From Xanthobacteraceae bacterium (lineage in GTDB: Bacteria > Pseudomonadota > Alphaproteobacteria > Rhizobiales > Xanthobacteraceae), in NCBI GenBank assembly GCA_019745775.1, contig JAIESR010000132.1:1-34849 (forward strand): a stretch of DNA of 34,849 nt. Reading direction: 5' to 3'. This document shows, in pieces, positions 4,012 to 34,849 of the stretch. Position numbers and translations under genes: made by a program. Positions within the stretch are counted from its first letter, which is position 1. Every line of letters begins with the position of its first letter. Under the pieces are notes generated by a model. The model was not told the origin of the DNA. It was given only the letters and a program-made list of their open reading frames with translations, and searched no databases.

Positions 4012-5181
4012 TCAACCCGGCTTGCCACCCGCACCAAGCGCCCGGCGGACCGCCGCGATAATTCGGTCCTGCACCGATTCCTCGAGATAGGCGTGCATCG
4101 GCAGGCTGATCACTTCCTTCGCCAGCCGTTCCGAGACCGGGAGCCCGCCCTCGGCGACCGGGAAGCCGGCATAGGCGCTCTGCCCGTGCACCGGCTTCGG
4201 ATAGTGAATCGCGGTCGGGATGCCCTGCGCCTTCAGGGTGGCGGCGAAGCTCTCGCGGCGCTCCGGCGCGACGCGGATGGTGTACTGCGCCCAGACCGAG
4301 GTCGAGCCGTCGGCGACGCGGGGAACCGCGGTGACATCGGCGAGCGCGGCCGAATAGCGCTGCGCGATGCGGTTTCGCGCCGCGATCTCGTCGGGGAAAA
4401 TCTTCAGCTTCTCGATCAGCACCGCGGCCTGGATGGTGTCGAAGCGCCCGTTCAACCCGATCCGCACGCAATCGTATTTGCCACGGCCCTCGCCGTGTAC
4501 GCGGATGCTGCGCAGCACCTCCGCGAGATCGTCGTCGTCGGTGAAGATCGCGCCGCCGTCGCCGTAACAGCCGAGCGGCTTGGCCGGAAAGAAGCTCGTG
4601 CCGGTGGCGTGGCCGAGCGTGCCGATCCTGCGGTTGCGGTAGGTGGCACCGAACGCCTGCGCGGCGTCGTCGATCACGAACAGCTTTGCCGCCTCGGCGA
4701 TCGCCGCGATGGCGGCGTGGTCGGCGGGCTGGCCGAACAGATCGACCGGAATGACTGCTTTCGGCGTGAGCCCGAGCTTCATCGCCACCGGGATCGCGCG
4801 CGCGAGGCTCTTCGGATCGAGGTTGAAGCTTTCCTCCTCCACGTCGACCAGAACCGGCGTGGCGCCGACCAAGGCGGCGACCTCGGCGGTCGCATAGAAG
4901 GTGAAGGCCGGCGTGAACACCGCGTCGCCGGGGCCGATGCCCCTCGCCATCAGCGGCATCAAGAGCGCATCGGTGCCGCTCGCGCAGGTGATGGCGTGGC
5001 GCGCGCCACAGAACGCCGCGAGGTCGGCTTCGACCTGATGAACCTCGGGACCGAGGATGAATTGGCAGTGGCCGAGCACGCGTGCGATCGCATCGTCGAT
5101 CGCCTTGCCAAGGCGTTTGCGCTGGGCGGCAATGTCAATGAAGGGGATTGGACTATTGTCCATTCGGACTTGCTGGTTCAT
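4012..5181 (-). CDS. DegT/DnrJ/EryC1/StrS-family sugar aminotransferase (WbpE-like)
   Basis: 389 residues, normal family length. This is a PLP-dependent enzyme aminating a keto nucleotide sugar. Visible landmarks: GTDAL (69-73) in the phosphate-binding loop, VDLFGQPADH (146-155), the PLP-ring Asp in IDDAAQAFGA (170-179), and the Schiff-base lysine K201 in SFFPAKPLGCYGDGG. It lies 15 nt downstream of a Gfo/Idh oxidoreductase. That pairing is typical of 3-amino-sugar pathways such as WbpB/WbpE (UDP-GlcNAcA to its 3-amino derivative), in which the oxidoreductase makes the 3-keto substrate. The matching acetyltransferase (WbpD type) is not adjacent, so the exact product is unknown. An alternative start is the ATG seven codons in (5163). 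Confidence 0.9.
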   Translation of the reverse strand: MNQQVRMDNSPIPFIDIAAQRKRLGKAIDDAIARVLGHCQFILGPEVHQVEADLAAFCGARHAITCASGTDALLMPLMARGIGPGDAVFTPAFTFYATAEVAALVGATPVLVDVEEESFNLDPKSLARAIPVAMKLGLTPKAVIPVDLFGQPADHAAIAAIAEAAKLFVIDDAAQAFGATYRNRRIGTLGHATGTSFFPAKPLGCYGDGGAIFTDDDDLAEVLRSIRVHGEGRGKYDCVRIGLNGRFDTIQAAVLIEKLKIFPDEIAARNRIAQRYSAALADVTAVPRVADGSTSVWAQYTIRVAPERRESFAATLKAQGIPTAIHYPKPVHGQSAYAGFPVAEGGLPVSERLAKEVISLPMHAYLEESVQDRIIAAVRRALGAGGKPG

Positions 5182-5196
5182 GTCGCTTGATTTCGA

Positions 5197-6192
5197 TCAA
5201 CCGCTGACGAGGCGCGGCGCGCGCTGGGCGCTCGGCTGGGCCGGCGTCTGCTGCAGGCAGCGCGTGGCGATTTCAAGGCTGCCGACGCCTTCTTCGCCGG
5301 TGACGGCGGGCGTGGTGCCGTCGCAGACCGCGGCGACGAAAGCCTGCAGCTCGGCGCGCAGCGGTTCGGCATGGCCGACCGAGAGATGGCGCATCGAATA
5401 GCTGCCATCGGGCTGGAAGCCGAAGCACTCGGTCACCTGCCGCGTCAGCAGGTCGCCCATGATGTACTTGTTGCGCGTCGCCACCGTCACGTTGCGCGCC
5501 TTGAACGGCGTCAGCCAGTTGGTGTTGATGTGGGCGAGCACGCCGGAGGCGGTGCGGAACTGCAGCAGCGCGATGTCTTCGCGCTCGGCGACCGCGCTCT
5601 TGAGCTGCGGCTGCACCTCGACGATCTCGGAATCGGTGAACCAGCGGATCAGGTCGATGTCGTGCACCGCGAGATCGATGACCACGCCGACATTCGACAT
5701 GCGCGGCGGGAACGGACCGACGCGGGTGATCGCGATCGACAGGATGTCCTCGCCCCGGATCGCGTCCTTGATGGTCTGCACCGCTGGATTGAAGCGCTCG
5801 ACGTGACCGACCATCAGCGTCACACCGGCGCGGCGTGCGGCGGCGATGATGGTGCGCCCCTCCTCGACCGTGGATGCGATCGGCTTCTCGACCAGAAGAT
5901 GGATGCCGTGGTTGATGCAGGCGACGGCGATGTCGCGATGCAGGTGGGTCGGCGCCGCGATGGTGACGGCGTCAACGCCGGCATCGAGCAGGCCGTCGAT
6001 GTCCGGAAAGCCCTGACAGCCGAGCGTGCCGGCCACGAATTCACGCTGCTTGGATTCGGGATCGACGATGCCGACCAGCGTCACGCCCGGGAGGCCGGCG
6101 AGCACGCGCGCATGGTTGCTGCCCATGACGCCAACGCCGACGACACCGATCCGAAGCGATTTGTCCGTGGCGACCGTGGCCCGTTCTTTCAT
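5197..6192 (-). CDS. Gfo/Idh/MocA oxidoreductase, WbpB/WlbA-like sugar dehydrogenase
   Basis: 331 residues. An N-terminal Rossmann fold begins with VVGVGVMGSNHA (17-28), the family motif EKP lies at 102-104, and there is GHVERFNP (129-136) and a likely catalytic His177 in DLAVHDIDL. This family oxidises or reduces sugars with NAD(P). Directly upstream of a DegT aminotransferase and nearly touching it, it probably provides the 3-keto nucleotide sugar (UDP-GlcNAc uronate or similar). Substrate is inferred from the pairing. About 250 nt separate its start from the upstream membrane protein gene, and this gap contains a 10-bp inverted repeat (6338-6347/6407-6416), so the pair may be transcribed as a sub-unit of its own. 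Confidence 0.88.
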   Translation of the reverse strand: MKERATVATDKSLRIGVVGVGVMGSNHARVLAGLPGVTLVGIVDPESKQREFVAGTLGCQGFPDIDGLLDAGVDAVTIAAPTHLHRDIAVACINHGIHLLVEKPIASTVEEGRTIIAAARRAGVTLMVGHVERFNPAVQTIKDAIRGEDILSIAITRVGPFPPRMSNVGVVIDLAVHDIDLIRWFTDSEIVEVQPQLKSAVAEREDIALLQFRTASGVLAHINTNWLTPFKARNVTVATRNKYIMGDLLTRQVTECFGFQPDGSYSMRHLSVGHAEPLRAELQAFVAAVCDGTTPAVTGEEGVGSLEIATRCLQQTPAQPSAQRAPRLVSG

Positions 6193-20652: not shown

Positions 20653-21786
20653 TCAGCGTCCCGGTGAGAGGCCGAAGCTACCGTAAAGCCTTGCGACAAC
20701 GCCCGTTACCGCGTCCTCGGTAAAGCCCTCGAGGAAGCGCCGGTTGGCGTTCCGCCCCATGTCCTGCCGCAAGGCCGCGTCGGCGGCGAGCCTCGCGACG
20801 GCCTTCGCCGCCCCGGCGATGTCGCCGGGCGCCACCAGAATGCCCTCCCGCCCGTCGCGAACGAGGTCGCGGCAGCCGGGAATGGCGCACGCGATGATCG
20901 GCCGGCCGGCGGCCGCCGCCTCGACGATGGTGCGCGGCAGGCCCTCGCGATAGGTGGACAGGAACAGCGCGACATGGTGCTCCCGCCAGACCCGGGCGAC
21001 GTCGTCCGTCCATCCCTGCCAGCGGATGCCGGGCTCCCGCCCCCACGCGCGCAGCACGTCCAACGGGATCGACAGCGGGTTTGCCGGGTCCGGCGCGCCA
21101 AACAGGCCTAGCTCGACGGCCGCGCCGGCGGCGCGCGCCTGCCGCACCGCCTCGACCGCGTCGGCGATGCCTTTCGGCGCGATCATGCGCGACACCACCG
21201 CCAGCTTGACCGGCGGCGCCGGCGGCTCCGGGAGATACGGGAAATCCTGCGGCGCGACGCCCGCGCCGCCGACGATGAAGACATCGCCGCCGTCTGGATC
21301 GAGCCCGAACGCGCGCGGGTCGTCCGTGTTCTCGAACAGATAGCGCGTATCGGGACCGCGCAGCCATGACGCGACCGCGCGCTTCACCAGCGCGCGCATG
21401 GTGCGGATGAAGACGCCGTCGGTGGTCCAAAGATAGCCGAGGCCGGTCGGTGCCAGCACGAGACGGCGCGCGCCGGCACGCCTGGCGGCCAGGCCGCCGA
21501 GCACGACCGGCCGTAATGCGATGCAATGCACGATGTCGGGCTTCTCATCGCGCACGATCCGGTAGGTCCGGATCATGGATTGCAGCGCCTCTATCACGCC
21601 CGCGCTTCCGCGTTTGGCGTTGAGCGGGATCAGGCGGAATCCCTCGGCGGCAATTCGCTCGGCCTTGTCGCTCGGCTGCGTCGCGATGGCGACGTCGAAC
21701 CCCAAGTCGCGCGCGGTCCGCGCCATCGGCATGAAGTGGGACGCGAAGAACCAATCCTCGGTTACGAGATAAAGGATTTTGGGCAT
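20653..21786 (-). CDS. GT4-family (GT-B fold) glycosyltransferase
   Basis: 377 residues. The N-terminal half begins MPKILYLVTEDWFFASHFMP, the pattern of WbpH/WcaI-like GT4 enzymes, and the C-terminal half carries VSRMIAPKGI and the EX7E-type site in YREGLPRTIVEAAAAGRPII. It is a retaining transferase adding a sugar from a nucleotide donor to a lipid-linked acceptor at the cytoplasmic membrane; donor unknown. The ATG at 21786 follows a GGGGG stretch; upstream in-frame Met codons (21801, 21810) would add a short non-conserved leader. First gene of the GT4-epimerase-manC unit, with a 91-nt gap to the epimerase. Confidence 0.88.
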   Translation of the reverse strand: MPKILYLVTEDWFFASHFMPMARTARDLGFDVAIATQPSDKAERIAAEGFRLIPLNAKRGSAGVIEALQSMIRTYRIVRDEKPDIVHCIALRPVVLGGLAARRAGARRLVLAPTGLGYLWTTDGVFIRTMRALVKRAVASWLRGPDTRYLFENTDDPRAFGLDPDGGDVFIVGGAGVAPQDFPYLPEPPAPPVKLAVVSRMIAPKGIADAVEAVRQARAAGAAVELGLFGAPDPANPLSIPLDVLRAWGREPGIRWQGWTDDVARVWREHHVALFLSTYREGLPRTIVEAAAAGRPIIACAIPGCRDLVRDGREGILVAPGDIAGAAKAVARLAADAALRQDMGRNANRRFLEGFTEDAVTGVVARLYGSFGLSPGR

Positions 21787-22229
21787 CGACCCCCGCTGCA
21801 TTGGTAACAATAACTATCAATGTTTCCGCGTCCGACGGGATGCTTGCCGCGCGCCTGCGCTGAATTTTTCTGATGATAGCGCAAGGGGCCGGAAGTGCCC
21901 ACCGGGCAGGGCTTTCTGCGATGGAGCCGCGCTTCGCGCTCACGTTATCATACGACTTTTGATGATAACGTGGATTTCTGTTTGATCCCGAGAAGCGACG
22001 CGCGCACAATGCAGGATATTTACGATGAATTGCGCGACTTTCGTCGTGGCTGGAGCGACCCGATTCGCGGTTGGCAAAGCGTTGATACCGAGGTTCGATC
22101 ATCCGCTCAGGTACGGCTTCTTTCCTCGCTTGTCGTTGTCTATAACCCTCCCAAATTTGCGCAGAACAAGGTATCTTGTCGATCTGCATAAAGATGCAGA
22201 ACTGTGTCGGACCGCGTGAGTCAAGCGTT
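21787..22229. promoter_or_regulatory. Divergent intergenic region with repeated TGATGATA-CG motif
   Basis: 443 nt with no credible gene separate the GT4 gene (minus) from the phosphodiesterase-fold gene (plus). They contain a perfect 11-bp inverted repeat, CACGTTATCAT (21941-21951) and ATGATAACGTG (21962-21972), with a 10-nt spacer. A related direct copy, TGATGATAGCG, is at 21871-21881. The region is more AT-rich than its surroundings. It probably contains promoters for both units and may be regulated by a DNA-binding protein at these sites. I found no clear -35/-10 pair. Confidence 0.45.
21941..21972. repeat. Perfect 11-bp inverted repeat (possible operator or hairpin)
   Basis: CACGTTATCAT and ATGATAACGTG are exact reverse complements with a 10-nt spacer (ACGACTTTTG). 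The centre-to-centre distance of the arms is 21 nt, about two helical turns, which suits a dimeric regulator. As RNA it could form a hairpin. It lies in the divergent promoter region. Confidence 0.6.
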
Positions 22230-24083
22230 ATGAGTGATGACAAATCCATACTGCTCGATACGAGCGGCGGACTGGGACAGCAAGGCTATGCTTGGACCAT
22301 CGAGATTCCCGCAAGCTTCGGGCCGGGCGACAATCTCGACGCTCTGACCAGTTCAAGATTGGTCGTATATGAAGACGATCGGGAACTGGGACCATCACAC
22401 GCTTCGCACGAGACGATTCGCCAGGCCGGCGGCGGCGCGTACTCGCATTGGAACAATACGCTCTATTTCTCGACATCCGACCGTAGCGACCCGCGAACAA
22501 ATGGGCGAAGATATCGGATCGCGCTTGGATCGCTGAAGGTCCTCGTCATCGGGGTCGACGGCACCGACCCCCAGATGCTGAGGCGCTACATTGTGGAAGG
22601 CCGCCTGCCGGCGATCACAAGGATCCTCGAGCAATCGCGCGAAGTCGAAGTCCGCACCGAGGGCGAGCTTTTCATCAATGCCGCCTGGACTTGCTTTGCC
22701 AGCGGACTATCGGTCGGGTCGCACGGCGTCCATGCATTTCGGCCGCTGCGCTCCGGGACCATGGAATTCGCGGTGCGGTCGGAGTACCGCGTGCCGACCC
22801 CATTTTGGAACTTTACCGCGCGCGCCGGCATCCGAACCTGCGTGCTGGACGGCCCGTTCTATCCACCGCCGGCGGCCGAGCACGGGCTTGAAAAGCTCAC
22901 TTACGTGGAATGGGGGCCGCATCCACCGGCGCGGCCGCCCAGTTCGTCTCCTCCGGACTTGATCGATTATCTCTCGAGCCGTCACGGTTCTCATCCTTGC
23001 ACCATCGACATCCAGGTACTCGACACCATCCAGGATTCGGCCGACATGGCCGCTCTGCTCTGCGCCGGCGCGCGCAAACGCGCCGCCATCACCAAAGACC
23101 TGATCCGGATAGCCAACCCGGAGCTGCTCGTCGTGCATTTTCCCGAGCTGCACACGGCGACGCACCAGTGGCTGAACAGCGAGACGCCCGGTCACCGCCG
23201 CTACGATGCCGCGCTGGTGAAGGCGCTCGGCTCGCCGATCCGGCAGGTGTACGAAGCGGTCGACCAGGCGATCGGAAGGATCATCGCACAGCTATCGCCG
23301 GACACGACGGTGGTCTTGACCTGTCTCGGTGGCGTGCGGGTAACCCACGGCGGTGCCTATCTGCTTGACCACCTTCTCCATCGGCTTGGCCTCTCGGTTC
23401 CGCCCACACCCGGCGAGCCGGCCTCCTGGCAACGCTATCCGGAACCGGTCCGCAGGGTCTTGCGCTTTTGCCGTGACGCCTGGGACAGACGCCTGCCATC
23501 CGAGAACCCGCGGCTCCTGAATATCGATTGGTCGAAGACCCGCGCCTTTGCCCTGCCCTGGGCCTACGATGGATATCTGCGGATCAATCAACGAGGCCGC
23601 GAACCGCGCGGCGTCGTTGCCGACGGGGCTGAGCGCGAACAGGTGCTTGCCGAGGTCGAGAGCGCCGTGCGCGGCTTGCGGTTGGCGGGGACGGATGAGC
23701 CAGCCGCCAAAGCAGTGGTCCGGACCCAGGACGCGTTTCCCGGCGCGGCGTCAGCCGAGCTGCCGGACCTGATGGTGCTGTGGAACAATGCCCGTCCGTT
23801 TGACGCGGTCGAGTCCGAGCAGCTGGGCCGCATCGAAAACGGCGATCCCGCCGGACGCTGCGCGCACAACGATTTGGGCGGCCTGTTCGCCTATGGACCG
23901 CTGATCGCCTATGGGCCAACAATCGCCGGCGCCCGCGACTACGACATCGCGCCGACGATCCTGGAAATGCTGGGGGTCAAAAGTCCCGAGCGTCTCGACG
24001 GCCATGCCATCTCCGAACTGATCGCGTCCGCTTCGACGGGTCGCGACGTCCGCAACACGAGCGCCCCGTTAGCCGCCGAATAG
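22230..24083 (+). CDS. Type I phosphodiesterase/nucleotide-pyrophosphatase-fold protein with novel N-terminal module
   Basis: 617 residues from the ATG at 22230; the frame upstream adds a non-conserved leader. The protein has two parts. Residues ~18-100 are a small module rich in aromatic and charged residues ([33 protein letters not shown]) that reappears in the 853-residue membrane protein at 30751-33312. Residues ~103-600 are an alkaline-phosphatase-superfamily domain: [14 protein letters not shown] (104-117), likely nucleophile Thr154 in [16 protein letters not shown], and a C-terminal metal region around [11 protein letters not shown]. No signal peptide is visible, so a cytoplasmic location is likely. 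It may hydrolyse a phosphodiester or nucleotide-sugar bond; the substrate is unknown. First gene of the plus unit; WbqC-like gene starts 1 nt after its stop. Confidence 0.8.
22386..22514 (+). other. Shared GP-H-H-GGG-SHW-SDPR module, copy 1 (residues 53-95)
   Basis: Core of the module in the phosphodiesterase-fold protein. Over 43 residues, 28 are identical to residues 106-148 of the membrane protein encoded at 30751-33312. Fixed positions are LGP, two His, IR, GGG, SHW, LYFS, SD, SDPR, NGR and Tyr. The Gly/Trp/Tyr/Asp-rich pattern suggests a compact beta-rich fold. Confidence 0.7.
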
Positions 24084-24084
24084 A

Positions 24085-24777
24085 ATGAAGAAGGTCGCCG
24101 TCGTTCAATCCAACTACATCCCCTGGAAGGGATATTTCGATCTGATCGCGGCCGTCGACGAGTTCATTATCCTTGACGACGTGCAATACACGCGGCGCGA
24201 CTGGCGCAATCGCAACGTGATCAAGACACCGGAGGGCCCCAAGTGGCTTACGATCCCGGTCAAGTCAAAGGGACACTATCATCAGACGATCCGTGAGGTT
24301 GAAATCGACGGCACGAGCTGGGGCGTCGTCCACCAGAAGGCGCTGCAATTGAACTACCGCCGCGCGGCCCATTTCGACGAAATTGCCGCGCTCCTTGATC
24401 CTTTCTTGCGGAACCCCCACCCACACCTGACGGAACTCAATTGCAGCATCATTTCTGCAATCTGCGGCTACCTCGGAATCGGCACGACGATCAGCCATTC
24501 TTCCGGCTATCGGTTGACGGGCGAAAAGAGCGAGCGCCTGGCCAACCTCTGCTTTCAGGCGGGAGCGACGGAGTATGTGTCCGGCCCGTCGGCGAAGACC
24601 TACCTTCGGGAGCAGGACTTCAAGGAGCGCGGCATCCAAGTCACCTGGTTTGACTACGATGGTTACCCCGAATACCCTCAGCTGTGGGGGGCGTTCATCC
24701 ACCACGTGACAATCCTCGATCTGCTCTTCAACTGTGGGAAGCAAGCGCCGCTGTTCATGAAGCATGTGCATCGATGA
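24085..24777 (+). CDS. WbqC-like family protein
   Basis: 230 residues, normal length. The N-terminus [16 protein letters not shown], then [15 protein letters not shown] and [14 protein letters not shown], are the signature of WbqC-like proteins, which occur in O-antigen and flagellin-glycan clusters. Their biochemical role is not settled in my knowledge; an amino-sugar N-acylation or related modification is often suspected. The start lies one base after the previous stop and its own stop overlaps the GT2 start (ATGA), so it sits firmly in the operon. The WecE-like aminotransferase at the end of the same operon would supply an amino sugar. Confidence 0.9.
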
Positions 24778-25702
24778 AACTGTCGATCGTAGCAACGCTT
24801 TATCAGTCTGCGCCCTATATCGAGGAGTTTTGCCGCCGGGCGAGTGACTCCGCAGCGCGCGTTGCCGGGAACGACTATGAGATCATCTTCGTCAATGACG
24901 GGTCGCCCGACGACAGCCTCGCTCGCGCTGTTCGACTGAGCGAAGCCAATCCTCATATTGCGGTTGTCGACCTGTCGCGAAACTTCGGCCATCACAAGCG
25001 ATGATGACCGGGCTGCGCTACGCGCGCGGCGAGCAGGTATTTCTGATCGATAGCGACCTTGAAGAAGAGCCTGAGTGGCTGATGACGTTCCTCGAGCAGA
25101 AGCAGCGTGAAAACTGCGATGTTGTTTACGGCGTCCAGGATGCTCGGAGGGGAGACAGTATCGAGCGCTGGAGCGGCCAATTGTACTACTGGGTGGTCCG
25201 CGCGACGACAGGGCTCATGCTGCCCGACAATATCGTGACGGCGCGGCTCATGAGCCGCGAGTATGTGGACGCTCTCTTGCTGCATGACGAAAGAGAGATG
25301 TTCATGGCCGGCCTTTGGTCTATCACGGGTTTCGATCAACGCCCGCAGACGGTCCACAAGCACGCCAACAACACGACGACCTACACGTTCGGCCGCAAAG
25401 TGACGCTCCTTGTGAACTCGATCACGTCGTTCAGCAGCGCACCGCTCGTCGGCATCTTTTACCTCGGCTTGTTCATTTCGCTCGTGGCCGGCACCTACAC
25501 GGCCTACCTGATCATCCACTGGGTGTTTCTTGCCAATCCGCCCAGCGGATGGACTTCAGTGATGGCCTCGATCTGGCTGTTGGGCGGGCTGGTCATTTTG
25601 TTCATCGGGATCATTGGCATTTATCTCTCGAAGATATTCTCCGAGGCGAAGCGGCGTCCGTATACGATCGTGCGAAAAGTCCATGGCCGACGAAACGAGT
25701 AG
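24774..25702 (+). pseudogene. GT2 polyprenyl-phosphate glycosyltransferase (GtrB/ArnC-like), frameshifted
   Basis: Two overlapping reading frames (24774-25004 and 25001-25702) together make a complete GtrB/DPM1-like GT2. The N-part has VNDGSPDDS and ends SRNFGHHKR-stop. The C-part begins MMTGLRYARGEQVFLIDSDLEEEPEW (DxD-type site) and ends with two TM helices. The expected junction is NFGHHKAMMTGL, so one base appears lost in AAG-GCG near 24998-24999, a -1 frameshift. The stop/start overlap CGATGATGA could allow coupled re-initiation, giving a split enzyme of 77 and 233 residues. Either way an intact 309-residue protein is not encoded. Such enzymes load a sugar onto undecaprenyl phosphate for periplasmic GT-C partners. 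A sequencing error is the main alternative. Confidence 0.8.
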
Positions 25703-26315
25703 CATCCTGGCCGATGTCGCCGCCTACTATGGGGCCAAGCTGGCCGAACATGGCCCGACGCCGCGGGGCGTGGATTGGAACGGCGAGGACGGCCAAGTGC
25801 TTCGTTTCGAGCAGCTTACAAAGGTGATCGAGCCCGGCGACGATTTTTCCGTCAATGACCTGGGATGCGGCTACGGCGCCTTGTATGACTACCTCGACAC
25901 CCGGTTCGATCGCTTCCGGTATATCGGGTGCGACATCTCGGAGGACATGCTGCGCGCCGCCCGGCAGCGCCTCGGTCAGCGCAAGAACACTCGATTTTGT
26001 CTGACGGCAGAGCCCGAGATCGCCGACTACGGCATTGCCAGCGGCATATTCAATGTCCGGCAGGGACGCAGCGACGCCGCGTGGCACAGTTATCTGGAGC
26101 AGACCCTCGCTACGCTGAACCGCACCAGCCGGAAGGGCTTCGCATTCAATGGCCTGACGTCCTATTCGGACCGCGACAAGATGCGGCCCGACCTCTACTA
26201 CGCGGACCCGGGTAGCCTGTTCGATCTATGCAAGCGACAATTCTCCCGGCATGTCGCCCTCCTGCATGACTACAATCTCTACGAATTCACAATTATTGTG
26301 AGGCGGGCAGCATGA
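25683..26315 (+). CDS. Class I SAM-dependent methyltransferase
   Basis: 210 residues from the ATG at 25683, overlapping the end of the GT2 gene by 20 nt. SAM motif VNDLGCGYGALYDYL (57-71), acidic motif II in YIGCDISEDML, and motif IV region YGIASGIFNVRQG. The shape (about 210 residues, C-terminal YNLYEFTIIVRR) recalls small trimethyl- or sugar O-methyltransferases in polysaccharide clusters. Its stop overlaps the next start by ATGA. Acceptor unknown; methylation of the amino sugar made in this operon is plausible. Confidence 0.85.
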   Translation: MADETSSILADVAAYYGAKLAEHGPTPRGVDWNGEDGQVLRFEQLTKVIEPGDDFSVNDLGCGYGALYDYLDTRFDRFRYIGCDISEDMLRAARQRLGQRKNTRFCLTAEPEIADYGIASGIFNVRQGRSDAAWHSYLEQTLATLNRTSRKGFAFNGLTSYSDRDKMRPDLYYADPGSLFDLCKRQFSRHVALLHDYNLYEFTIIVRRAA

Positions 26316-26977
26316 GCCGCCCTCTGGTCATCTTCGGCGCCGGCGACATTGCGCAGCTCGCGCATTACTACTTTTCGTCCGACACGGACTACGAGGTCGT
26401 CGCATTCACGGTCGATCCAGAATACATGTCTGCCGACCGCTTTTGCGAGCTTCCACTAGTGCCCTTCGGTGAAATCGCAACACGTTATCCGCCCGCGGCG
26501 TGCGAAATGTTCATTGGCGTGAGCTATACGAAACTCAATCAAGTGCGAAAGGAGAAATATATCGCGGCCAAAGCCTCCGGCTATCGGCTCGCCACCTATA
26601 TCAGTTCGCGTGCGGCGGTTCTCAACGCCGGACGCATCGGCGACAACTGTTTCATCCTCGAAGACAATACGATCCAGCCATTCACAACAATCGGCAACAA
26701 CGTCGTCCTGTGGAGCGGCAATCACATCGGCCATCATTCGACCATCCGCGATCATTGCTTTATCTCATCGCATGTCGTGGTGTCGGGCGGCGTTGAGATC
26801 GGCGAATCCTGTTTTATCGGCGTCAACGCGACGCTTCGCGATCACATCAGGATCGGCGACCGCTGCGTTATCGGCGCCGGCGCGCTGCTGCTTGCCGATG
26901 CGGAGCCCGAGGGCGTCTATCTCGGCGAGGAGACCGCCCGCTCGCGGGTCCCCAGCAGCCGCCTGCGAAAGATCTGA
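26312..26977 (+). CDS. NeuD/PglD-like sugar O- or N-acyltransferase (left-handed beta-helix)
   Basis: 221 residues. An N-terminal Rossmann-like half starts PLVIFGAGDIAQLAHYYF. The C-terminal half is a hexapeptide-repeat beta-helix (IGDNCFILEDNTIQPFTTIGNN ... IGHHSTIRDHCFISSHVVVSG), with the HH near the acetyl-CoA site matching the catalytic His of PglD/NeuD enzymes. The family acetylates (or formylates/acylates) the 4-amino group of UDP-sugars or O-positions of sialic acids. With the WecE-like aminotransferase in the same operon, N-acylation of a 4-amino-4,6-dideoxy sugar is a good hypothesis. Confidence 0.88.
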   Translation: MSRPLVIFGAGDIAQLAHYYFSSDTDYEVVAFTVDPEYMSADRFCELPLVPFGEIATRYPPAACEMFIGVSYTKLNQVRKEKYIAAKASGYRLATYISSRAAVLNAGRIGDNCFILEDNTIQPFTTIGNNVVLWSGNHIGHHSTIRDHCFISSHVVVSGGVEIGESCFIGVNATLRDHIRIGDRCVIGAGALLLADAEPEGVYLGEETARSRVPSSRLRKI

Positions 26978-26989
26978 CAGGCACGCGAT

Positions 26990-27898
26990 ATGCGATGGCG
27001 AAAGCTCGGGCTTCTCTACAGTCCTCGAAGCGAGCACCCCAAGCTCGCGAGTCATGCCGCCAATCCACTTGCGATTCTCCTGCGAGGCGATGTGTACCGT
27101 GTCTTCTTCTGCGGGCGCGATGCGCAGAACAGGTCATCGGTGGGCTCCGTCGATGTCGACATCGCGCGGCGCGAAGTCGTCCAGCTTGCACGGGACATCG
27201 CGTTCGCGCACGGGCCGGAGGGGAGCTTCTACTCGCACGGCGTGAGCATCGGAAATTGCTACGAAGCCGATGGTCGACGCTACATGCTGTTCATGGGATG
27301 GCAGAATCCGGCGGACGGGCATTGGCGCGGCGACATCGGACGGCTCCTTGTGTCGCCGGATCTTTCGCTCAGTCTTGATGGCGATCAGCCGTTCATGGCC
27401 GCGGACCATGTCGATCCCGTCAGCCTCTCCTACCCTTGGGTGATCCGGCATCGCGGAAGTTATCGGATGTGGTACGGTTCCACGGTCACCTGGGACGCGG
27501 GCAATGGCGAGATGCTACATGTGCTCAACCACGCGACGTCGGACGATGGACATCGGTGGCGGCGGCATGGTCTGGGCGTCCCCTACCAGCTCGGCGTCGC
27601 GCAGGCATTCTCACGCCCGACGGTCATCGTCGATAGTCACGGCACATGTCACATGTGGTTCTCCTATCGCGGTGGAGCGGGTGAGAAGTATCGCATCGGC
27701 TATGCCGTCAGCGCCGACGGCGAGCGCTGGGAGCTGAGGTTGGATCAGGCCGGCATCGAAGCCTCGGCGTCGGGCTGGGACGGTGAGATGATTGCGTATC
27801 CGTTCGTGTTCGAGCACGGTGGAGAGGTTTTCATGTTCTACAACGGTAATGGATATGGGCGAACCGGATTTGGCATGGCGGTGGTGGAGGCGCAATGA
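26990..27898 (+). CDS. Beta-propeller glycosidase-like protein (GH43/GH32-type fold)
   Basis: 302 residues without a signal peptide. Repeated blade-like segments, YRVFFCGRD, YMLFMGWQNP, YRMWYGSTVTWD, CHMWFSYRG and VFMFYNGNGYGRTGFG, follow the pattern of five-bladed propellers of the arabinanase/invertase superfamily. Asp and Glu residues at blade edges could form an active site, but I cannot name the catalytic pair. In polysaccharide clusters such cytosolic propeller proteins are often annotated as glycosidases of unknown use. It starts 13 nt after the acyltransferase stop, so is in the operon. A transferase or binding role is also possible. Confidence 0.7.
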   Translation: MRWRKLGLLYSPRSEHPKLASHAANPLAILLRGDVYRVFFCGRDAQNRSSVGSVDVDIARREVVQLARDIAFAHGPEGSFYSHGVSIGNCYEADGRRYMLFMGWQNPADGHWRGDIGRLLVSPDLSLSLDGDQPFMAADHVDPVSLSYPWVIRHRGSYRMWYGSTVTWDAGNGEMLHVLNHATSDDGHRWRRHGLGVPYQLGVAQAFSRPTVIVDSHGTCHMWFSYRGGAGEKYRIGYAVSADGERWELRLDQAGIEASASGWDGEMIAYPFVFEHGGEVFMFYNGNGYGRTGFGMAVVEAQ

Positions 27899-27961
27899 CC
27901 ACCTATGTCGCATCAATTCCTCCACATTCGTTGATCCAGTAAGGCAGCGCCGTGGCCATCC

Positions 27962-29566
27962 GTGACTAAAAAAGACCGGATTATCCAAACAGCTCAGATG
28001 CAACCGGCCATATTCTCCCTCGGTCTGGTGGCAATCCAGACTACAGCGCTTTACTTGGTGTTCGAACCACGATGGGAGACCAACGACGATGTTGCCATGT
28101 CGATGGTGGCTCATGGCTATGGGCTAACGGTTCAAGGCTCGCCGCACCTCATATTCTCGAACGTGCTCTGGGGATATGTCGTGCGCGCCATTCCGTCGAT
28201 AGGTGGCGTATCTGGATATGCCGTTGCGACGATCGTGAGCCTTGGGATTGTTGGCTGGTCGATCCTGCATTGCTTGCATCGGCTCGGCGTCGCCTATGGG
28301 ATCGCGCTGCTGGCAGTCGTGCTGATATTGCTGCGGCCTCTTCAGTTTCCACAATTCACGATTACGGCGGGGCTTCTTGTTGTCGCGGCGGTCGTCGTCC
28401 TACAAGCCTACGATCATTTGCGTAGCACTACCTTGCTACTCACAGGCTGCGCTCTCTTGCTCGCCAGCTTTTTGGTTCGCCAGCTCGAGTTCATCCTTGT
28501 TTTGTTCGTCGGTATTCCGCTCTTGCCGTGGCAAGCGCTGCTTCAGCGGCGCGAAGCACAATTTGCGCTCCCTGCTCTCGGTTTGGCGTTGACAATCGCG
28601 TTCGCAATGGACGCGTGGTCTTATAGCGGGCAGGAATGGAGCACCTTCTCGGAACTAAACGGTATCCGCGGGCAGTTCACCGATTTTGGCGCCGGTCCGC
28701 GCTTGCTCCAGCAGCCCGAGATTTTGGCTCGCCACGGTTACAGCCAAAACGATATTTCGCTCGTCGAGCACTGGTTCTTCGTCGACCCCAACATTGCATC
28801 GCCTGTTGCACTGACGTCTATGTTCACTGAGCTAGGGCGGCCCGCTCCGCTTGCGTTGGAGTCCGTTCGATCTGGTATGTTGGCAATTGAAGCACTGGCG
28901 GCGCCAGAATTGCTTCCGCTCCTTCTCGTAGCACTTGCACTGCTGATCGTTGCACCACATTGGCGCGTCGCAATTGCCTGGGCGCTTTGCCTGGCCGCGG
29001 TGTTCACCATTGGCGCGCTTGGAAAGCCGGGCGCGGTACGCGTCTACGTACCGCTTGTGGCGCTTCTGATTGTAGCATCACTTATGTTTGGCCTGCGCGA
29101 CAGTATTACGCAACGTCGAGTCGTTGCTGGCACGCTCCTGATCGGATGCCTGTTCAATCTGTACCGGCTTATCCCGGAAGCATCTGCTTCCGCGCAGAAA
29201 ATCCAGCAAGTGCAAGTCGATATGGCGCAGCTGCCACAGGGGCCGATCGTAATTTGGGGCGCAAGCTTTCCGTTCGAGTACGCCTTCCCTCCGTTACGAG
29301 AAATCAAGAGTGATGCACCGAAGATCTATGGCTTGGACGTTTTCACACTCGCCCCCTTCTCGGTCGGGTCATCCGAATATGCCGCCGGGAGAGGATTAGT
29401 CGAGCGCTTACAATCCTCTGATGGGTTGCCAATTATCGTATTGCAGAACAACGTTGAAATGCTTCGCAAGTATTGCTTGGAGCGGCTAGGGAAACGCTTG
29501 ACCGAAACCTCGACACGCGAGACGCCTTCATTCACCATCCGGCAGCTGCGCTGCGGGGAGATGTGA
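27962..29566 (+). CDS. Polytopic membrane protein, probable GT-C-like glycosyltransferase
   Basis: 534 residues from a GTG start. Helix 1 is followed by RWETNDDVAMSMVAHG (37-52), an Asn-Asp-Asp motif typical of a family of bacterial membrane proteins in glycan loci that resemble GT-C enzymes. About eleven more hydrophobic helices follow up to residue ~400. The last ~130 residues form a soluble, probably periplasmic domain, a layout also common in GT-C enzymes. Base composition is visibly less GC-rich than most neighbours. It sits between the propeller protein (63-nt gap) and the WecE-like gene, whose ATG overlaps its stop by one base. It could use the lipid-linked sugar made by the GT2 of the same unit. 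Confidence 0.72.
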   Translation: MTKKDRIIQTAQMQPAIFSLGLVAIQTTALYLVFEPRWETNDDVAMSMVAHGYGLTVQGSPHLIFSNVLWGYVVRAIPSIGGVSGYAVATIVSLGIVGWSILHCLHRLGVAYGIALLAVVLILLRPLQFPQFTITAGLLVVAAVVVLQAYDHLRSTTLLLTGCALLLASFLVRQLEFILVLFVGIPLLPWQALLQRREAQFALPALGLALTIAFAMDAWSYSGQEWSTFSELNGIRGQFTDFGAGPRLLQQPEILARHGYSQNDISLVEHWFFVDPNIASPVALTSMFTELGRPAPLALESVRSGMLAIEALAAPELLPLLLVALALLIVAPHWRVAIAWALCLAAVFTIGALGKPGAVRVYVPLVALLIVASLMFGLRDSITQRRVVAGTLLIGCLFNLYRLIPEASASAQKIQQVQVDMAQLPQGPIVIWGASFPFEYAFPPLREIKSDAPKIYGLDVFTLAPFSVGSSEYAAGRGLVERLQSSDGLPIIVLQNNVEMLRKYCLERLGKRLTETSTRETPSFTIRQLRCGEM

Positions 29567-30726
29567 TGAGTGACAAGCCGATCCCGTTCAACTGGCCCCA
29601 CGTGGTCGGTAAGGAGCTCGCCTACATCACTGAGGCGCAGAAACTGGGGCAGCTTGCCGGAGACGGCACGTTCACCAAGCGCTGCCAGGACTGGGTCGAG
29701 CAACGCACCGGCTGCAGCAAAGCGCTGCTAACCCACTCCTGCACCGCCGCGCTGGAAATGGCGGCCCTGCTTGCCAACGTCGAGCCAGGCGACGAAGTGA
29801 TCATGCCGTCGTTCACGTTCGTGTCGACGGCGAATGCATTCGTCTTGCGGGGCGCGCGGCCCGTATTTGTCGATGTCCGCCCGGATACTCTCAACATAGA
29901 CGAGCACCTGATCGAAGCCGCCATCACGCCGCATACGCGCGCGATCGTCGCGGTGCACTATGCCGGCGTCGCCTGTGAGATGGACGCGATCATCGAGATT
30001 GCCTGCCGGCATAATCTCATCGTCGTTGAAGACGCGGCCCAGGGCGTTCTTGCGCGCTACAAAGGCCAATCATTGGGCAATATCGGTCATCTGGGCGCAT
30101 ACAGCTTTCACGAGACCAAGAACGTGATCTCCGGTGAAGGTGGCTGCCTGCTGGTGCGCGATCCCGCGCTGATCGCACGCGCCGAGATCATCCGCGAGAA
30201 AGGCACCGACAGGAACCGATTCTTCCGCGGAGAAGTCGACAAATACACGTGGCAGGACGTCGGATCGTCCTTCCTTCCCGGCGAACTGATTGCTGCGTTT
30301 CTTTGGGCACAGCTCGAGGTAGCCGACACCATCACGCAACGTCGCATGACACATTGGGAGTACTATCACGCCCGCCTCGCCGAACTCGAAACGGAAGGCC
30401 GGCTACGACGCCCGATCATACCGGCGGCCTGCCAGCACAACGCGCATCTCTACTACGTCATGCTTTCTCCAGAGATCGATCGGCAAGCCGTTCTGGACGC
30501 ACTCAAGCGCAACAATATGGCGGCACTGTTCCATTACGTGCCACTGCATTCTTCTCCCGCCGGGCAACGCTATGGCCGCGCGCATGGCATGCTGCCAGTA
30601 ACCGATCTGGCGGCCAGGCAACTGATCCGCCTGCCCCTCTTCATCGGAATAACCGAAGCGCAGCAAGACAGAGTCATCGAAACGCTAACGGCTGCGACGA
30701 GGTCGAAGCCAGGGCACGCGAAATAG
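29566..30726 (+). CDS. wecE: WecE/RffA-like dTDP-4-amino-4,6-dideoxygalactose transaminase
   Basis: 386 residues. High similarity to E. coli WecE can be seen by eye: IPFNWPHVVGKELAYI, LAGDGTFTKRCQDW, PSFTFVSTANAFVLRGA, HYAGVACEMD, EDAAQG (155-160), FHETKN with PLP lysine K185, and EIIREKGTDRNRFFRGEVDK. WecE aminates dTDP-4-keto-6-deoxyglucose with glutamate to give dTDP-Fuc4N. The genes making that substrate (rmlA, rmlB) are not in the window and would have to be elsewhere. The ATG at 29566 shares its A with the stop of the upstream membrane protein gene. It is the last gene of the unit, 24 nt from the convergent 853-residue membrane protein gene. Confidence 0.92.
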   Translation: MSDKPIPFNWPHVVGKELAYITEAQKLGQLAGDGTFTKRCQDWVEQRTGCSKALLTHSCTAALEMAALLANVEPGDEVIMPSFTFVSTANAFVLRGARPVFVDVRPDTLNIDEHLIEAAITPHTRAIVAVHYAGVACEMDAIIEIACRHNLIVVEDAAQGVLARYKGQSLGNIGHLGAYSFHETKNVISGEGGCLLVRDPALIARAEIIREKGTDRNRFFRGEVDKYTWQDVGSSFLPGELIAAFLWAQLEVADTITQRRMTHWEYYHARLAELETEGRLRRPIIPAACQHNAHLYYVMLSPEIDRQAVLDALKRNNMAALFHYVPLHSSPAGQRYGRAHGMLPVTDLAARQLIRLPLFIGITEAQQDRVIETLTAATRSKPGHAK

Positions 30727-30750
30727 CAAGCGCTGGAGGCAATATCTTCT

Positions 30751-33312
30751 CTATTGGATCCGCCAGATCGCGTACAAGCCGTTCCGGTAGATTCTGTCCC
30801 AGCCTATCGGGACGGGACGGTTCGCATTAACGACTGCGAAGTAGGAGCCGTACCGTTGATGCGTGGGAAGCTCGATCGGCGCCATTCCACCGGATAGAAC
30901 GAGATCATTGATTCCCAAGCGCTTGTCGCGCAGCTCAGGATTGTTGCGGAGTTCCCGACTTTGGTACCAGCTGGACAAATACACTTGGCGTTCTCCGTTG
31001 AAAGCATAAGTGTTCCAGCCGCCGAGCAACCCCGGTTCACGCCCGGTTTGGTCGGTAAAGACTAACGCATCTCGTGGCGTTAGTTCGCGCACTCGCTGCC
31101 AGATGTCACGCAGGTCCGGCGTGAAGTTCTGAGCCCCAAATTGCCTGGTTGTAGGAAGCACACCCCGCGATTCGCCGAACAGCACCAATGCCAGCACGAC
31201 AGCCACCGCCGGAAGCACAGCGCGACCCAACTGCGAGGCGGGTTTCGACAACGAAATCCCTTCCCGTCGGAAAATCACCCAAAGCAGCCCCGCCATAATG
31301 AACAGCCAGACGACGCCAGCAAGCGGTCCGGCCGGATCGGTCAACACCATGGCCGGTAGCATCAGCAACAGCCCAGCGCTTGCTCCTCCGATCCAGCGTT
31401 TTTTTCGTGCTGGATCGTCGATCTCGGCGAGACCTAGCGAAATCGACGCGCATACGAAGTTTATCCGCATTGCGTAAGGAAAGATAAGGGCAATCAAGAA
31501 CCCAAACGAGGCTGCCAGAGAGTAAGGCCAAGGCATGACAACCAGCGCCATCACAGCCAGCGTTAAACATCCAACATCTCGAAGAACATACGGCCACGCG
31601 GTTGTAAGCGGGCTGCCGTATATCGCGATCGACACGTACGATTCCGTTGCTAATCCTTCCGCCAGAAGCGATGGTACCAGATACCTGCCCAGCATCAGGA
31701 GTGCATAACCGCCACACAGCAGAACCAAAAGCGCCACCGCCGCGCGCGCCCAAACCGGTAGACGACGCAAGTCTTGGACAATTCCGAGCAGTGCCAAAGG
31801 TCCCAAGGTCGCAAAGGCAGCAACCTTGCTGAGCAGGGACCCAACGAGCCCCATCGCCACCGCGATTGGAGATGACATCTTGCTCTCCGGGCGCCTTGAG
31901 ATCCAAAACCATACGGCAATCGTCAGTGGGACAACGTGGGCGACTGGCGGGCTCTCGGCAATCCAGTAGGGGTAACGGCCGGCGGCCAGGATCGCCAACA
32001 TCAGAACAAATGCTTCGGGCGACAAGAAAGAGACCTCGCGCCCTTGCGTAAGGTAGGCGTGGAGAGCGATGCCGGCCCCGGCAATACTCATGACGGCGGC
32101 TGTCATCAGCACAAACAGAAAACCGTCGATATCGATCAGTCGACGAATGGCCGCTCCGAGCGCCGGAATCAGCTGATTGAAGTATCCGAAATACTCGCCT
32201 TCGTTTCCGAGATTGGGAAATGGATAAGGATGCGAAGAGATCGCTGCGACGCTCGACGCGTAGAAAATCAGATCACCGGACGGATGCCCCTGAAGCGTCG
32301 CCGTTGGTCCATGCCACTGAACGGCAAGCCAGAATGCGAAAGCGCAGGACAGCAGCAATATAGCCGGCATTCGACGCAGCAGATCGCGGGAAGGAGCGGT
32401 CTCCATCGGCCAGCGATACAATGGCCAAAGACACGCGATAATCAGGGCCGACGCAACGATGAGCCCGTTTGGCACGAGCAGCGCTACTACACACAGAGCC
32501 GCCAGAACCGCGAGGCTCAGCGGGAAACCCAGCAAAACGATATGAGCGTATGAAATCTGTTTCGGAAGCAGCGCGCGCGCGAGCCCCACGCCCAGGGTCC
32601 ATTGCAAGATCGTGAGGAGAACCGCGATGAACAGATGCAATATCACCGTGGCGAAGAAATCAGAATCGATCGGCTGACGGTTCGGCGGGTTGACCAAGAT
32701 GATGGCTGTGCCAATCGCCGCGATTCCGGCCAGCGCGCCGGGAAGAGCAGCACGGTGAGTCGCAAGCCCATTGATGAGCCGTCTGCGGCATAACACGACG
32801 AACGCGATGCTGGTGAGCAACACCGCGAAGATTGCGGTCGTCGAGATTCTTGCCGTGGCTGAGGCCGTATACTTCCGTCCGTTTGATCGGGGATCGGAAC
32901 CGTCACTCGATGAAAAATAGAGGTGATTTCCCCAATGGGAGAAGCGCCCTCCTCCATTCACTCGTATGTCAGCGTGGACGCTATGCGCTGGGCCAAGCGG
33001 GCGACCGTTCTCCAAAAGCCGTAGCGACGATGAGTCGCTGCATCGTCTGTCGTCGCAGACTTCAAGCGGAAAGCGATGGGGAAAATTGAGCGGCGCGATA
33101 TAAGCCGTCCCTCGCTCAGGCGTAATCGAGTTTCGTTCAATCCTAACCTCGCTCGTGGGCACCCAAAGAGACTGAAGCAGAATGGCAATATTCGCCAGTC
33201 CTATCACGACTCCCAAGGTCCACAGCACGCTCGCATCAGCGCGATCTACCGCGCTGATGATCAACCGGATAACGGCTTTTGCCCGGTCAGCGATTGTGGA
33301 TTTCTCGTACAT
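30751..33312 (-). CDS. Large membrane protein with novel periplasmic module, possible GT-C-like enzyme
   Basis: 853 residues. Helix 1 (about 30-50) is followed by an extramembrane segment (about 56-150) that carries the same SHW/SDPR module as the phosphodiesterase-fold protein at 22230. About sixteen further hydrophobic segments (to ~700) and a C-terminal soluble domain (~715-853) follow. HPSGDLIFYASSVAAISSHP with NLGNEGEYFGYFNQ resembles the acidic loop regions of large bacterial GT-C or polymerase-like proteins; I do not recognise a named family. The ATG at 33312 was chosen as it precedes helix 1; a TTG start at 33384 is possible. It is convergent with the WecE-like gene, and its base composition is lower in GC than the left half of the window. 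Confidence 0.75.
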   Translation of the reverse strand: MYEKSTIADRAKAVIRLIISAVDRADASVLWTLGVVIGLANIAILLQSLWVPTSEVRIERNSITPERGTAYIAPLNFPHRFPLEVCDDRRCSDSSSLRLLENGRPLGPAHSVHADIRVNGGGRFSHWGNHLYFSSSDGSDPRSNGRKYTASATARISTTAIFAVLLTSIAFVVLCRRRLINGLATHRAALPGALAGIAAIGTAIILVNPPNRQPIDSDFFATVILHLFIAVLLTILQWTLGVGLARALLPKQISYAHIVLLGFPLSLAVLAALCVVALLVPNGLIVASALIIACLWPLYRWPMETAPSRDLLRRMPAILLLSCAFAFWLAVQWHGPTATLQGHPSGDLIFYASSVAAISSHPYPFPNLGNEGEYFGYFNQLIPALGAAIRRLIDIDGFLFVLMTAAVMSIAGAGIALHAYLTQGREVSFLSPEAFVLMLAILAAGRYPYWIAESPPVAHVVPLTIAVWFWISRRPESKMSSPIAVAMGLVGSLLSKVAAFATLGPLALLGIVQDLRRLPVWARAAVALLVLLCGGYALLMLGRYLVPSLLAEGLATESYVSIAIYGSPLTTAWPYVLRDVGCLTLAVMALVVMPWPYSLAASFGFLIALIFPYAMRINFVCASISLGLAEIDDPARKKRWIGGASAGLLLMLPAMVLTDPAGPLAGVVWLFIMAGLLWVIFRREGISLSKPASQLGRAVLPAVAVVLALVLFGESRGVLPTTRQFGAQNFTPDLRDIWQRVRELTPRDALVFTDQTGREPGLLGGWNTYAFNGERQVYLSSWYQSRELRNNPELRDKRLGINDLVLSGGMAPIELPTHQRYGSYFAVVNANRPVPIGWDRIYRNGLYAIWRIQ
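32869..32997 (-). other. Shared GP-H-H-GGG-SHW-SDPR module, copy 2 (residues 106-148)
   Basis: Core of the module in the 853-residue membrane protein, between helix 1 and helix 2, so predicted on the outer face of the membrane. LGPAHSVHADIRVNGGG, RFSHWGNHLYFSSSDGSD and PRSNGRKY line up without gaps with the copy at 22386-22514. Two Cys just upstream (CDDRRC, residues 86-91) could form a disulfide in a periplasmic setting; the cytoplasmic copy lacks them. Confidence 0.7.
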
Positions 33313-33484: not shown

Positions 33485-34849
33485 TCAGGTGAAGAACAGG
33501 AAATCGCTGCTGACCAGGTTGTTCTTATTGACGTTATCCAACGTCAGCGTATTGCCGCCGCCGAAATCGATCACCGTGTTCGCGTCGACCTGGGTCGCCC
33601 GCGCCATCACATCGGCCAGGCTCGTAATGCTGGACCATGACCGCAGGTCGACTTCATCGACCCCGCCGGCGCCGGCCGTGAAGTCCCTGATCGCGTCGAC
33701 GCCGATCGAATAAACAAACGTGTCGTCCCCGGCCATGCCCCACATCAAGTCACTGCCGCCACCGCCATCCAGCGTGTCGTTGCCGTCGACGCCCCACAGC
33801 TGGTTGTCGCCGCCGTCGCCGATCAGCGTGTCATTGAAGTTAGAGCCGACCAGACCTTCAATCGCAACGTAGCTGTCGCCAGTTGCATCGCCAGTGTTGG
33901 CCCCCGCATCGGCCAGGCTGGCCGTTACGCCAGTCGACGCAAACATATAGCGCGCGTAGTCGAATCCAGCGCCACCGTCATAGCTGTCCGCCCCGGCGCC
34001 GCCATCCAGGCGATCGGTGCCGTCGCCGCCAAGGATCACGTCATTGCCAGCGCCACCATCGATCGTGTCGTCGCCGGCCAGACCGATGAGGGTGTCCGCG
34101 GCAGACGTCCCGGCGAACGTATTCGCGCTGTTATTGCCGAGAATGACCGCAACCGTGTTCGAGGCGTTGTTCGCTTCGTTGGTCTCTCCGACCTGACCGT
34201 TATGATCCGCCAGCACGCCAAGATAGTAAGTGCCCGGCGTCAGGTTGCCCGGGAAGGTAAGCGTCCCCCCTTGGTTCACAGACCCGCCGGCGGCCAGTCC
34301 CGAAGTGGCCATCGACGTCACCAGCGTATCCGCGCTGGTGATCGCGCTGTCGGTTGACAGGTAGATGCCGGTGGTCGAGCCAGCCGCGGCATTGGCGCCG
34401 ATATTGTTGATCGTGAAGCTGACGCTTGTCCCGTTCAGAACAAGACCGCTCGCGGTTAGATCGACGCCTGAAGCCGGAGCCGTCGCGAAAAGGAAGTCGC
34501 CGCTCACCAGGTTGTTCTTATTGACGTTATCCAACGTCAGCGTATTGCCGCCGCCGAAATCGATCACCGTGTTCGCGCCGACCTGGGTCGCCCGTGCCAT
34601 CACATCGGCAAGACTTGTAATGCCGGCCACCGCTCGAAGGTCGATTTCGTCGACCCCGCCGACGCCGGCAACAAAATCCCTGATCGCGTCGGCGCCCGTC
34701 GAATAGATAAATACGTCGTCACCGGCTCCGCCCCAGATTGCGTCGCTGCCACCACCGCCATCCAGCGTGTCATTGCCGTCGACGCCCCACAGCTGGTTGT
34801 CGCCGCCGTCGCCGATCAGCGTGTCATTGAAGTTAGAGCCGACCAGACC
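33485..34849 (-). CDS. RTX calcium-binding/CARDB repeat protein, C-terminal part, open at right edge
   Basis: The frame is open from the right edge of the window to a TGA at 33487-33485: 454 codons visible with no N-terminus. Read from the edge: RTX nonapeptides (GGDNQLWGVDGND, GGGGSD), a linker ending TLDNVNKNNLV, a CARDB-type domain (about ASGVDLTASGLVL to NNASNTVAVIL), more RTX repeats (IDGGAGNDVILGGDGTD, LDGGAGADSYDGG), and then a second copy of the first block that ends the protein. RTX proteins are secreted by type I systems and fold on binding calcium outside the cell; CARDB domains are common in adhesins. It is likely a large secreted or surface protein, perhaps interacting with the polysaccharide. 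No T1SS gene is in the window. Confidence 0.88.
   Translation of the reverse strand, partial: GLVGSNFNDTLIGDGGDNQLWGVDGNDTLDGGGGSDAIWGGAGDDVFIYSTGADAIRDFVAGVGGVDEIDLRAVAGITSLADVMARATQVGANTVIDFGGGNTLTLDNVNKNNLVSGDFLFATAPASGVDLTASGLVLNGTSVSFTINNIGANAAAGSTTGIYLSTDSAITSADTLVTSMATSGLAAGGSVNQGGTLTFPGNLTPGTYYLGVLADHNGQVGETNEANNASNTVAVILGNNSANTFAGTSAADTLIGLAGDDTIDGGAGNDVILGGDGTDRLDGGAGADSYDGGAGFDYARYMFASTGVTASLADAGANTGDATGDSYVAIEGLVGSNFNDTLIGDGGDNQLWGVDGNDTLDGGGGSDLMWGMAGDDTFVYSIGVDAIRDFTAGAGGVDEVDLRSWSSITSLADVMARATQVDANTVIDFGGGNTLTLDNVNKNNLVSSDFLFFT
33513..33856. repeat. DNA repeat copy A (993-bp period)
   Basis: Aligns without gaps to 34506-34849 at an offset of exactly 993 bp (331 codons). Both ends are nearly identical (about 70 bp each) with a more divergent centre. 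The outermost bases coincide with the window edge, so the repeat unit continues beyond. Confidence 0.9.
34506..34849. repeat. DNA repeat copy B (993-bp period), cut by window edge
   Basis: Partner of 33513-33856 inside the RTX/CARDB gene. The offset is constant at 993 bp, indicating an in-frame duplication of a 331-residue unit. Confidence 0.9.

Follow-up and report, generated by a model that had tools for sequence, protein, structure and literature searches.

Two otherwise unrelated proteins encoded in the window, that is, the whole stretch of 34,849 nucleotides analysed here, carried copies of one homologous module that recurred elsewhere in bacteria beside many different partner domains. 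The module has no name in Pfam or NCBIfam, and it may help the enzymes that carry it to hold a sugar chain. It could well be a compact, beta-rich accessory domain for carbohydrate recognition, not a catalyst, that serves on either side of the membrane. Whatever its ligand, it merits a family entry of its own.

One module in two unrelated proteins

An earlier note on this DNA had reported 28 identities over 43 ungapped positions between residues 53-95 of protein A and 106-148 of protein B, along with an invariant pattern running from LGP-x-H to NGR-x-Y; for this pair of proteins, both were reproduced exactly. BLASTP aligned the module core with 33 of 55 residues identical (E 4e-18), scoring 75.1 bits with compositional adjustment and 73.6 bits without. 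When protein B was shuffled 1000 times and compared with protein A, the maximum was 29.6 bits (without adjustment, as for the real match at 73.6), and when both modules were masked, the best remaining score was 17.7 bits (E 2.0). These two results show that the match is real and that the remainder of the two proteins has no visible relation, as the note had held. The shared unit itself had been drawn too short, as alignments and both structure models extended it from 43 to about 95 residues (Table 1). Copies A and B were 42% identical over 88 aligned columns, which is less than the identity of their best matches in other phyla (47% for copy A, 53% for copy B), indicating that the window copies are not the product of a recent exchange.

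AlphaFold2, given copy A with 62 aligned modules, predicted a small beta domain (pLDDT 95.3, pTM 0.87). The model of residues 1-215 of protein B (49 rows) had the same strand order and main helix, with an additional short helix at residues 89-94, and confidence within its module reached block means of 81-98, except for 57 at residues 81-90. Both copies were predicted as one beta-rich domain, not as two different folds, and the invariant polar residues lay mostly in loops of the predicted model.

In protein A, a type I phosphodiesterase/nucleotide pyrophosphatase domain, which we take to belong to the alkaline phosphatase superfamily, followed the module directly at residues 104-517 (Pfam), and this domain was present in two of 60 other genomes searched. 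The body of protein B had no Pfam match and no credible PDB match, and a search of 60 other genomes found homologues of it in none; from its architecture, protein B is probably a GT-C-like enzyme. Hydropathy placed no hydrophobic segment in protein A, while in protein B the module sat between segments at residues 28-46 and 156-174. Lysine and arginine accounted for 5 of the 27 residues preceding the first segment, 14 of the 109 in the loop that contains the module and 4 of the 14 that follow the second segment, a distribution that, as hydropathy-based evidence, favours an extracytoplasmic module without proving it. The proposal that the two copies work on opposite sides of the membrane was thus consistent with the predicted topology.

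Ten further window proteins were scanned, of which seven had Pfam matches and three had none. Six of the seven were of a type found in glycan loci, namely the WbqC-like protein, the family 2 glycosyltransferase, the methyltransferase, the hexapeptide acyltransferase, the DegT aminotransferase and the GT4 glycosyltransferase. The family 2 glycosyltransferase gene appeared to change frame near position 25000, which may reflect a sequencing error or a pseudogene.

Table 1. Features of the window, with positions counted from its first nucleotide
Feature	Position	Strand	Basis
GT4 glycosyltransferase	20653..21810	-	PF13692, E 2.5e-23
Protein A, 617 aa, N-terminal module and phosphodiesterase domain	22230..24083	+	Pfam PF01663, E 1.1e-17
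Module copy A, roughly residues 6-97	22245..22520	+	BLASTP, AlphaFold2, alignment
WbqC-like protein	24085..24777	+	PF08889, E 2.7e-81
Family 2 glycosyltransferase, frame apparently broken	24774..25702	+	PF00535 on 25001-25702
SAM methyltransferase (start approximate)	25614..26315	+	PF08242, E 3e-9
Hexapeptide-repeat acyltransferase	26312..26977	+	PF00132, E 6.5e-22
302-aa protein in the glycan locus	26990-27898	+	no Pfam match at E 0.001
Polytopic protein without module, body related to the contig C89 module-bearing protein	27962..29566	+	
DegT/DnrJ/EryC1/StrS sugar aminotransferase (start approximate)	29473..30726	+	PF01041, E 5.1e-89
Protein B, 853 aa, polytopic membrane protein	30751..33312	-	hydropathy
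Module copy B, roughly residues 53-154	32851..33156	-	hydropathy, structure model, alignment
Protein with RTX calcium-binding repeats and CARDB domain, adjoining protein B	33485-34849	-	Pfam

The same genome carried two additional copies of the module on other contigs. The module-bearing protein of contig C89 had only its helix-module-helix part in common with protein B, and its body was related instead to the polytopic window protein that has no module (22% over 469 aa, E 9e-8 in a seven-sequence comparison). A paralogue of the phosphodiesterase on contig C122 (26% identity) had an open frame that began near the hydrolase domain and gave no module match. The fourth module-bearing gene of the genome, on contig C95 (L098, 7069-9383, minus strand), was apparently split between two frames. 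The same contig encoded an 885-aa polytopic protein (L098, 2857-5511, minus strand) with a possible degenerate module after its first helix that lacked SDxSDP (SRLQLLQDGRSI), for which the profile score was not significant (E 0.32).

Distribution, partners and gene clustering

We gathered 90 distinct copies of the module from phage-type contigs and from bacteria of nine phyla (Pseudomonadota, Bacteroidota, Planctomycetota, Gemmatimonadota, Acidobacteriota, Armatimonadota, Chloroflexota, Wallbacteria and Thermodesulfobacteriota); phyla were read from record titles and the taxonomy line, and for several genera they were assigned from the genus name. Identical cores, the weak match L041 and one double record (the L006 fragment and L099) were removed from this set, the weak phylum matches L039 and L040 were kept, and loci from the 296-genome family sample were left out of all module counts. 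Distribution was sporadic. A one-genome-per-species collection held at least 33 module loci, a lower bound because the search used two short exact patterns, and the module was present in at least 4 of 398 genomes sampled from the phylum (one of them borderline) and at least 9 of 296 sampled from the family, the own genome included in each; these are also lower bounds, because no more than 12-16 candidates were scored at first in most genomes. Fourteen IMG/VR contigs and one plasmid carried the module, and a phage collection searched with a hand-written consensus gave no match.

Three residues were present in all 90 copies: E48, D84 and Y95 in the numbering of protein A, which correspond to E101, D137 and Y148 in copy B. 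Near-invariant positions in copy A included G69 and N91 (89 of 90 each) and R93 (85), and L53 and P88 were kept in 87 and 86 copies. Less constant were W74 (69 of 90) and H57 (59 of 90), tryptophan and histidine being residues of a type typical in sugar contacts.

The earlier statement that no named domain has this motif was borne out in the collections searched. Among 43 modules, Pfam gave no convincing match (six families with one or two members each, best E 0.041), nor did NCBIfam among 62 (four families with one member each, best E 0.0029, to a linaridin-like RiPP model). Against PDB sequences, a single-sequence search with the module reached a best E of 0.19, and a profile search returned one chance-level match (E 1.6) that was not Wzt. 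Foldseek found no solved fold in the PDB at E<=0.001 for the module A model, the top TM-score by query being 0.51 among the best 50 of 461 matches. No description of the motif was found in open-access PMC full text.

Pfam scans of 52 records, representing 51 distinct module-bearing proteins (one being a fragment of another), placed a partner above the cut-off in 36, of 19 kinds, and none in 15. By family name, the partner was a glycosyltransferase or polysaccharide lyase in 17 of the 36. The partners comprised Phosphodiest, PMT, GtrII, GT4, GT61, two pectate lyase families and PcRGLX; TylF and further methyltransferases, radical SAM/SPASM, Stf0 sulfotransferase, Asn_synthase/GATase and GFO/IDH/MocA; and GDSL, Acyl_transf_3, transglutaminase-like, PASTA/PKD and Ig-like domains. 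GT4, the methyltransferases and the oxidoreductases are usually cytoplasmic, PMT and GtrII usually face the periplasm, and the lyases are usually secreted. The module stood N-terminally, C-terminally, between domains or in tandem: it was C-terminal in three PMT proteins, N-terminal in two GtrII proteins, at either end in methyltransferases, and present three times in tandem ahead of radical SAM in Azospirillum. Module-only forms also occurred, lipobox-bearing in Mucilaginibacter and single-helix in Bradyrhizobium and phage-type contigs (signals judged by eye). One 2486-aa planctomycete protein (L096, 8735-16192, minus strand) combined an asparagine-synthase-like amidotransferase, two modules and a GT4 domain. 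This range of partners, many of them glycan enzymes, upheld the earlier description of a mobile module.

Module genes were clustered. Across 17 multi-copy genomes, 36 of 102 pairs lay within 30 kb of each other on one contig, compared with 1.2 expected; in this count tandem copies in one frame were merged, and one pair of overlapping frames in G415 may be one gene. Two related Azospirillum genomes supplied 20 of the 36 close pairs, and dropping one of them left 26 of 92. One Azospirillum contig held five module genes within 20 kb, encoding a methyltransferase-like protein (below cut-off), GT61, GT4, and relatives of the transglutaminase-like and radical SAM proteins. Of 29 genomes searched via their loci, 13 gave a single module match, although many were drafts in which copies may be missed. 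In genomes with several modules, and with the double record removed, the nearest relative of 14 of 56 lay within the own genome, whereas shuffles gave 2.5 and never more than 10; five of these 14 belonged to tandem arrays inside a single gene, and another may come from a gene split between frames. Mean identity was 0.42 for modules that shared a partner but not a genome, 0.40 for those of one genome with different partners, and 0.37 for the rest (91 modules including one double record, with hand-assigned partner labels). Convergence of modules within a genome on a strain-specific glycan was considered and rejected, as kinship inside genomes was present but weak.

In five phage-type records (L047, L048, L051, L055 and L056), the module gene was opposite in strand, by eye, to its long neighbours, and cargo (moron) genes are usually arranged in this way. 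In L048, from IMG/VR, a methyltransferase-like protein (4392-5306, plus strand) bore the module close to its C-terminal end, and an adjoining endolysin gene ran on the other strand; L049 and L050 had module-bearing frames of equal length. Of 10 phage-type records, 4 contained an endolysin family, which was present in those of L047 and L055 and not in those of L051 and L056, and which also matched in 3 of 14 control genomes. The large terminase was clear in one of 11 records and weak in two, with a model that also matched 11 of the 14 control genomes. A neighbour in L056 matched tail/virion families, and one in L052 matched an O-acetyltransferase family. The single-helix, module-only proteins of L047, L051, L055 and L056 are likely encoded by phage cargo genes. 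As the gene layout resembles that of cargo genes, it is reasonable to suppose that phage module genes may alter or mask host surface glycans.

The models of both window copies, searched against predicted viral structures (BFVD), returned an identical set of five giant-virus proteins, each with E below 1e-7 (A0A3G5AEI9, A0A3G5ADE5, A0A3G5AAL9, A0A3G5A2W3 and A0A3G5A4X5). Three were from Hyperionvirus (a type-2 glutamine amidotransferase, a galacturonosyltransferase-like protein and a methyltransferase) and two from Harvfovirus (a radical SAM protein and an uncharacterised one). Compared by names and structure scores, these viral proteins appeared like module A in predicted fold (TM-score by query 0.78-0.90, identity 31-40%), and their amidotransferase, methyltransferase and radical SAM classes were also found as partners in bacteria.

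Possible roles of the module

Recognition of a glycan is the reading we favour, since glycan is the factor common to the partners and compartments of the module. Attached to enzymes that synthesise, modify or cleave surface polysaccharides, and located in the compartment where each of them acts, the module would keep the glycan that serves as shared acceptor or substrate close to the catalytic centre. The clustering of module genes, the window neighbours of glycan-locus type and the invariant polar residues in a model of high confidence also speak for this reading, and the carbohydrate-binding domain of Wzt offers a precedent. We infer sugar binding, and with it a binding surface and a role in each protein: the loops ELGPxHxxHxxIR and SDxSDPxxNGRxY and the YSHW strand may form the surface, the module of protein A would offer its phosphodiesterase domain a glycan or glycan phosphate on the cytoplasmic side, and that of protein B would keep the acceptor in place where a GT-C-like transferase faces the periplasm. 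Several observations argue against this. The motif is nearly constant across phyla although surface glycans differ, and this near-identity points to a single, universally present determinant or partner more than to sugars that vary between strains, a structural role being compatible as well. Some partners (radical SAM, transglutaminase-like, PASTA/PKD and Ig) have no clear place among glycan enzymes, 15 of the 51 scanned proteins showed no partner above cut-off, and W74 and H57 vary. With no solved fold matching module A at the threshold used, the module also has no link to a known carbohydrate-binding module.

The main rival, which we hold to be doubtful, is that the modules bind one another, or all bind one scaffold, and so gather the enzymes of one pathway as dockerins do, with the module-only anchored proteins as the scaffold. 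Several enzymes of one locus do carry the module, as in the five-gene Azospirillum cluster, tandem copies exist, and conservation is strong whatever the partner or genome. Speaking against docking are the predicted placement of copies both in the cytoplasm and beyond the membrane, the genomes that gave a single match (many of them drafts, where copies may be missed), and the lone copy with a pectate-lyase-like protein in some genomes. An Ig-like spacer that stabilises or positions enzymes and has no ligand seems unlikely. The small beta fold and its very high model confidence would suit a spacer, part of the motif resembles a turn of the chitobiase C-terminal domain, and the most constant residues (E, D, Y, N, G, P and R) could all be structural; set against this are charged residues invariant across phyla, the existence of module-only proteins, the frequency of glycan partners and the clustering of the genes.

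The earlier note had suggested recognition of a sugar or of a polyprenyl phosphate. The partners favour the sugar and make polyprenyl phosphate the weaker candidate, because the module also occurs on pectate-lyase-like proteins, lipobox-bearing module-only proteins and methyltransferases, none of which has obvious contact with a membrane carrier; recognition of polyprenyl (pyro)phosphate or another such carrier would suit protein B and the PMT and GtrII partners, and we consider it improbable overall. It is more improbable still that the module is a divergent member of Fn3_assoc (PF13287) or CHB_HEX_C_1 (PF13290), the chitobiase C-terminal Ig-like domain. These families share a short motif of the type Y-T-x-D-G-x-x-P...Y that resembles FSTSDxSDPxTNGRxY of the module, and one Bradyrhizobium protein matched them over 22-24 residues (E 0.0025 and 0.0051), but at 18.3 and 17.2 bits these matches fell below the cut-offs of 23 and 22, and among isolated modules only 2 of 43 and 1 of 43 matched, with best E of 0.054 and 0.14. 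Profile comparison with 12 Fn3_assoc sequences gave an hhalign P-value of 0.0042, at a probability of only 8.1% over 18 columns. The motif lies near the start of the Fn3_assoc domain and at the end of the module, no chitobiase was among the best 50 of 461 Foldseek matches, and the profile comparison with Fn3_assoc did not support the proposed link.

Returning to glycan recognition, it is possible, and we propose it tentatively, that this unnamed family acts as a glycan handle shared by entire assembly lines of surface glycans and read by enzymes at either face of the membrane, carried as phage cargo in module-only or methyltransferase-linked form and by soil giant viruses with several of the same partner classes. 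If so, the shared handle would span glycosyltransferases, methyltransferases, radical SAM enzymes, amidotransferases, esterases and lyases, and it could be used as a sequence tag for unknown polysaccharide loci, those of phages and giant viruses included. A common recognition domain that guides the enzymes of one pathway to the polymer, as in O-antigen exporters, would then become testable.

Relation to known accessory domains

Like the carbohydrate-binding modules of CAZy, the module is a small, mobile beta domain that is found at either terminus and sometimes in tandem, and it is a discrete domain fused to carbohydrate-active enzymes in 17 of the 36 partner-bearing proteins. CAZy modules are defined by measured binding and typically belong to secreted degradative enzymes, whereas this module occurs also on usually cytoplasmic biosynthetic enzymes. 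The dockerin/cohesin system resembles it in placing one module on many enzymes of one system; dockerins are calcium-binding repeats on secreted enzymes.

The O-antigen exporter Wzt is described as having a cytosolic beta-sandwich carbohydrate-binding domain that recognises the glycan terminus (PMC9445017). As described there, that domain is part of an ABC transporter ATPase, whereas the module belongs to many enzymes and, as predicted, to both sides of the membrane; Wzt was not among the best 50 of 461 Foldseek matches to module A. The Wzt carbohydrate-binding domain may be regarded as the nearest working analogue, being, in that account, an accessory beta domain in the cytoplasm of a polysaccharide pathway, as we propose for the module (PMC9445017).
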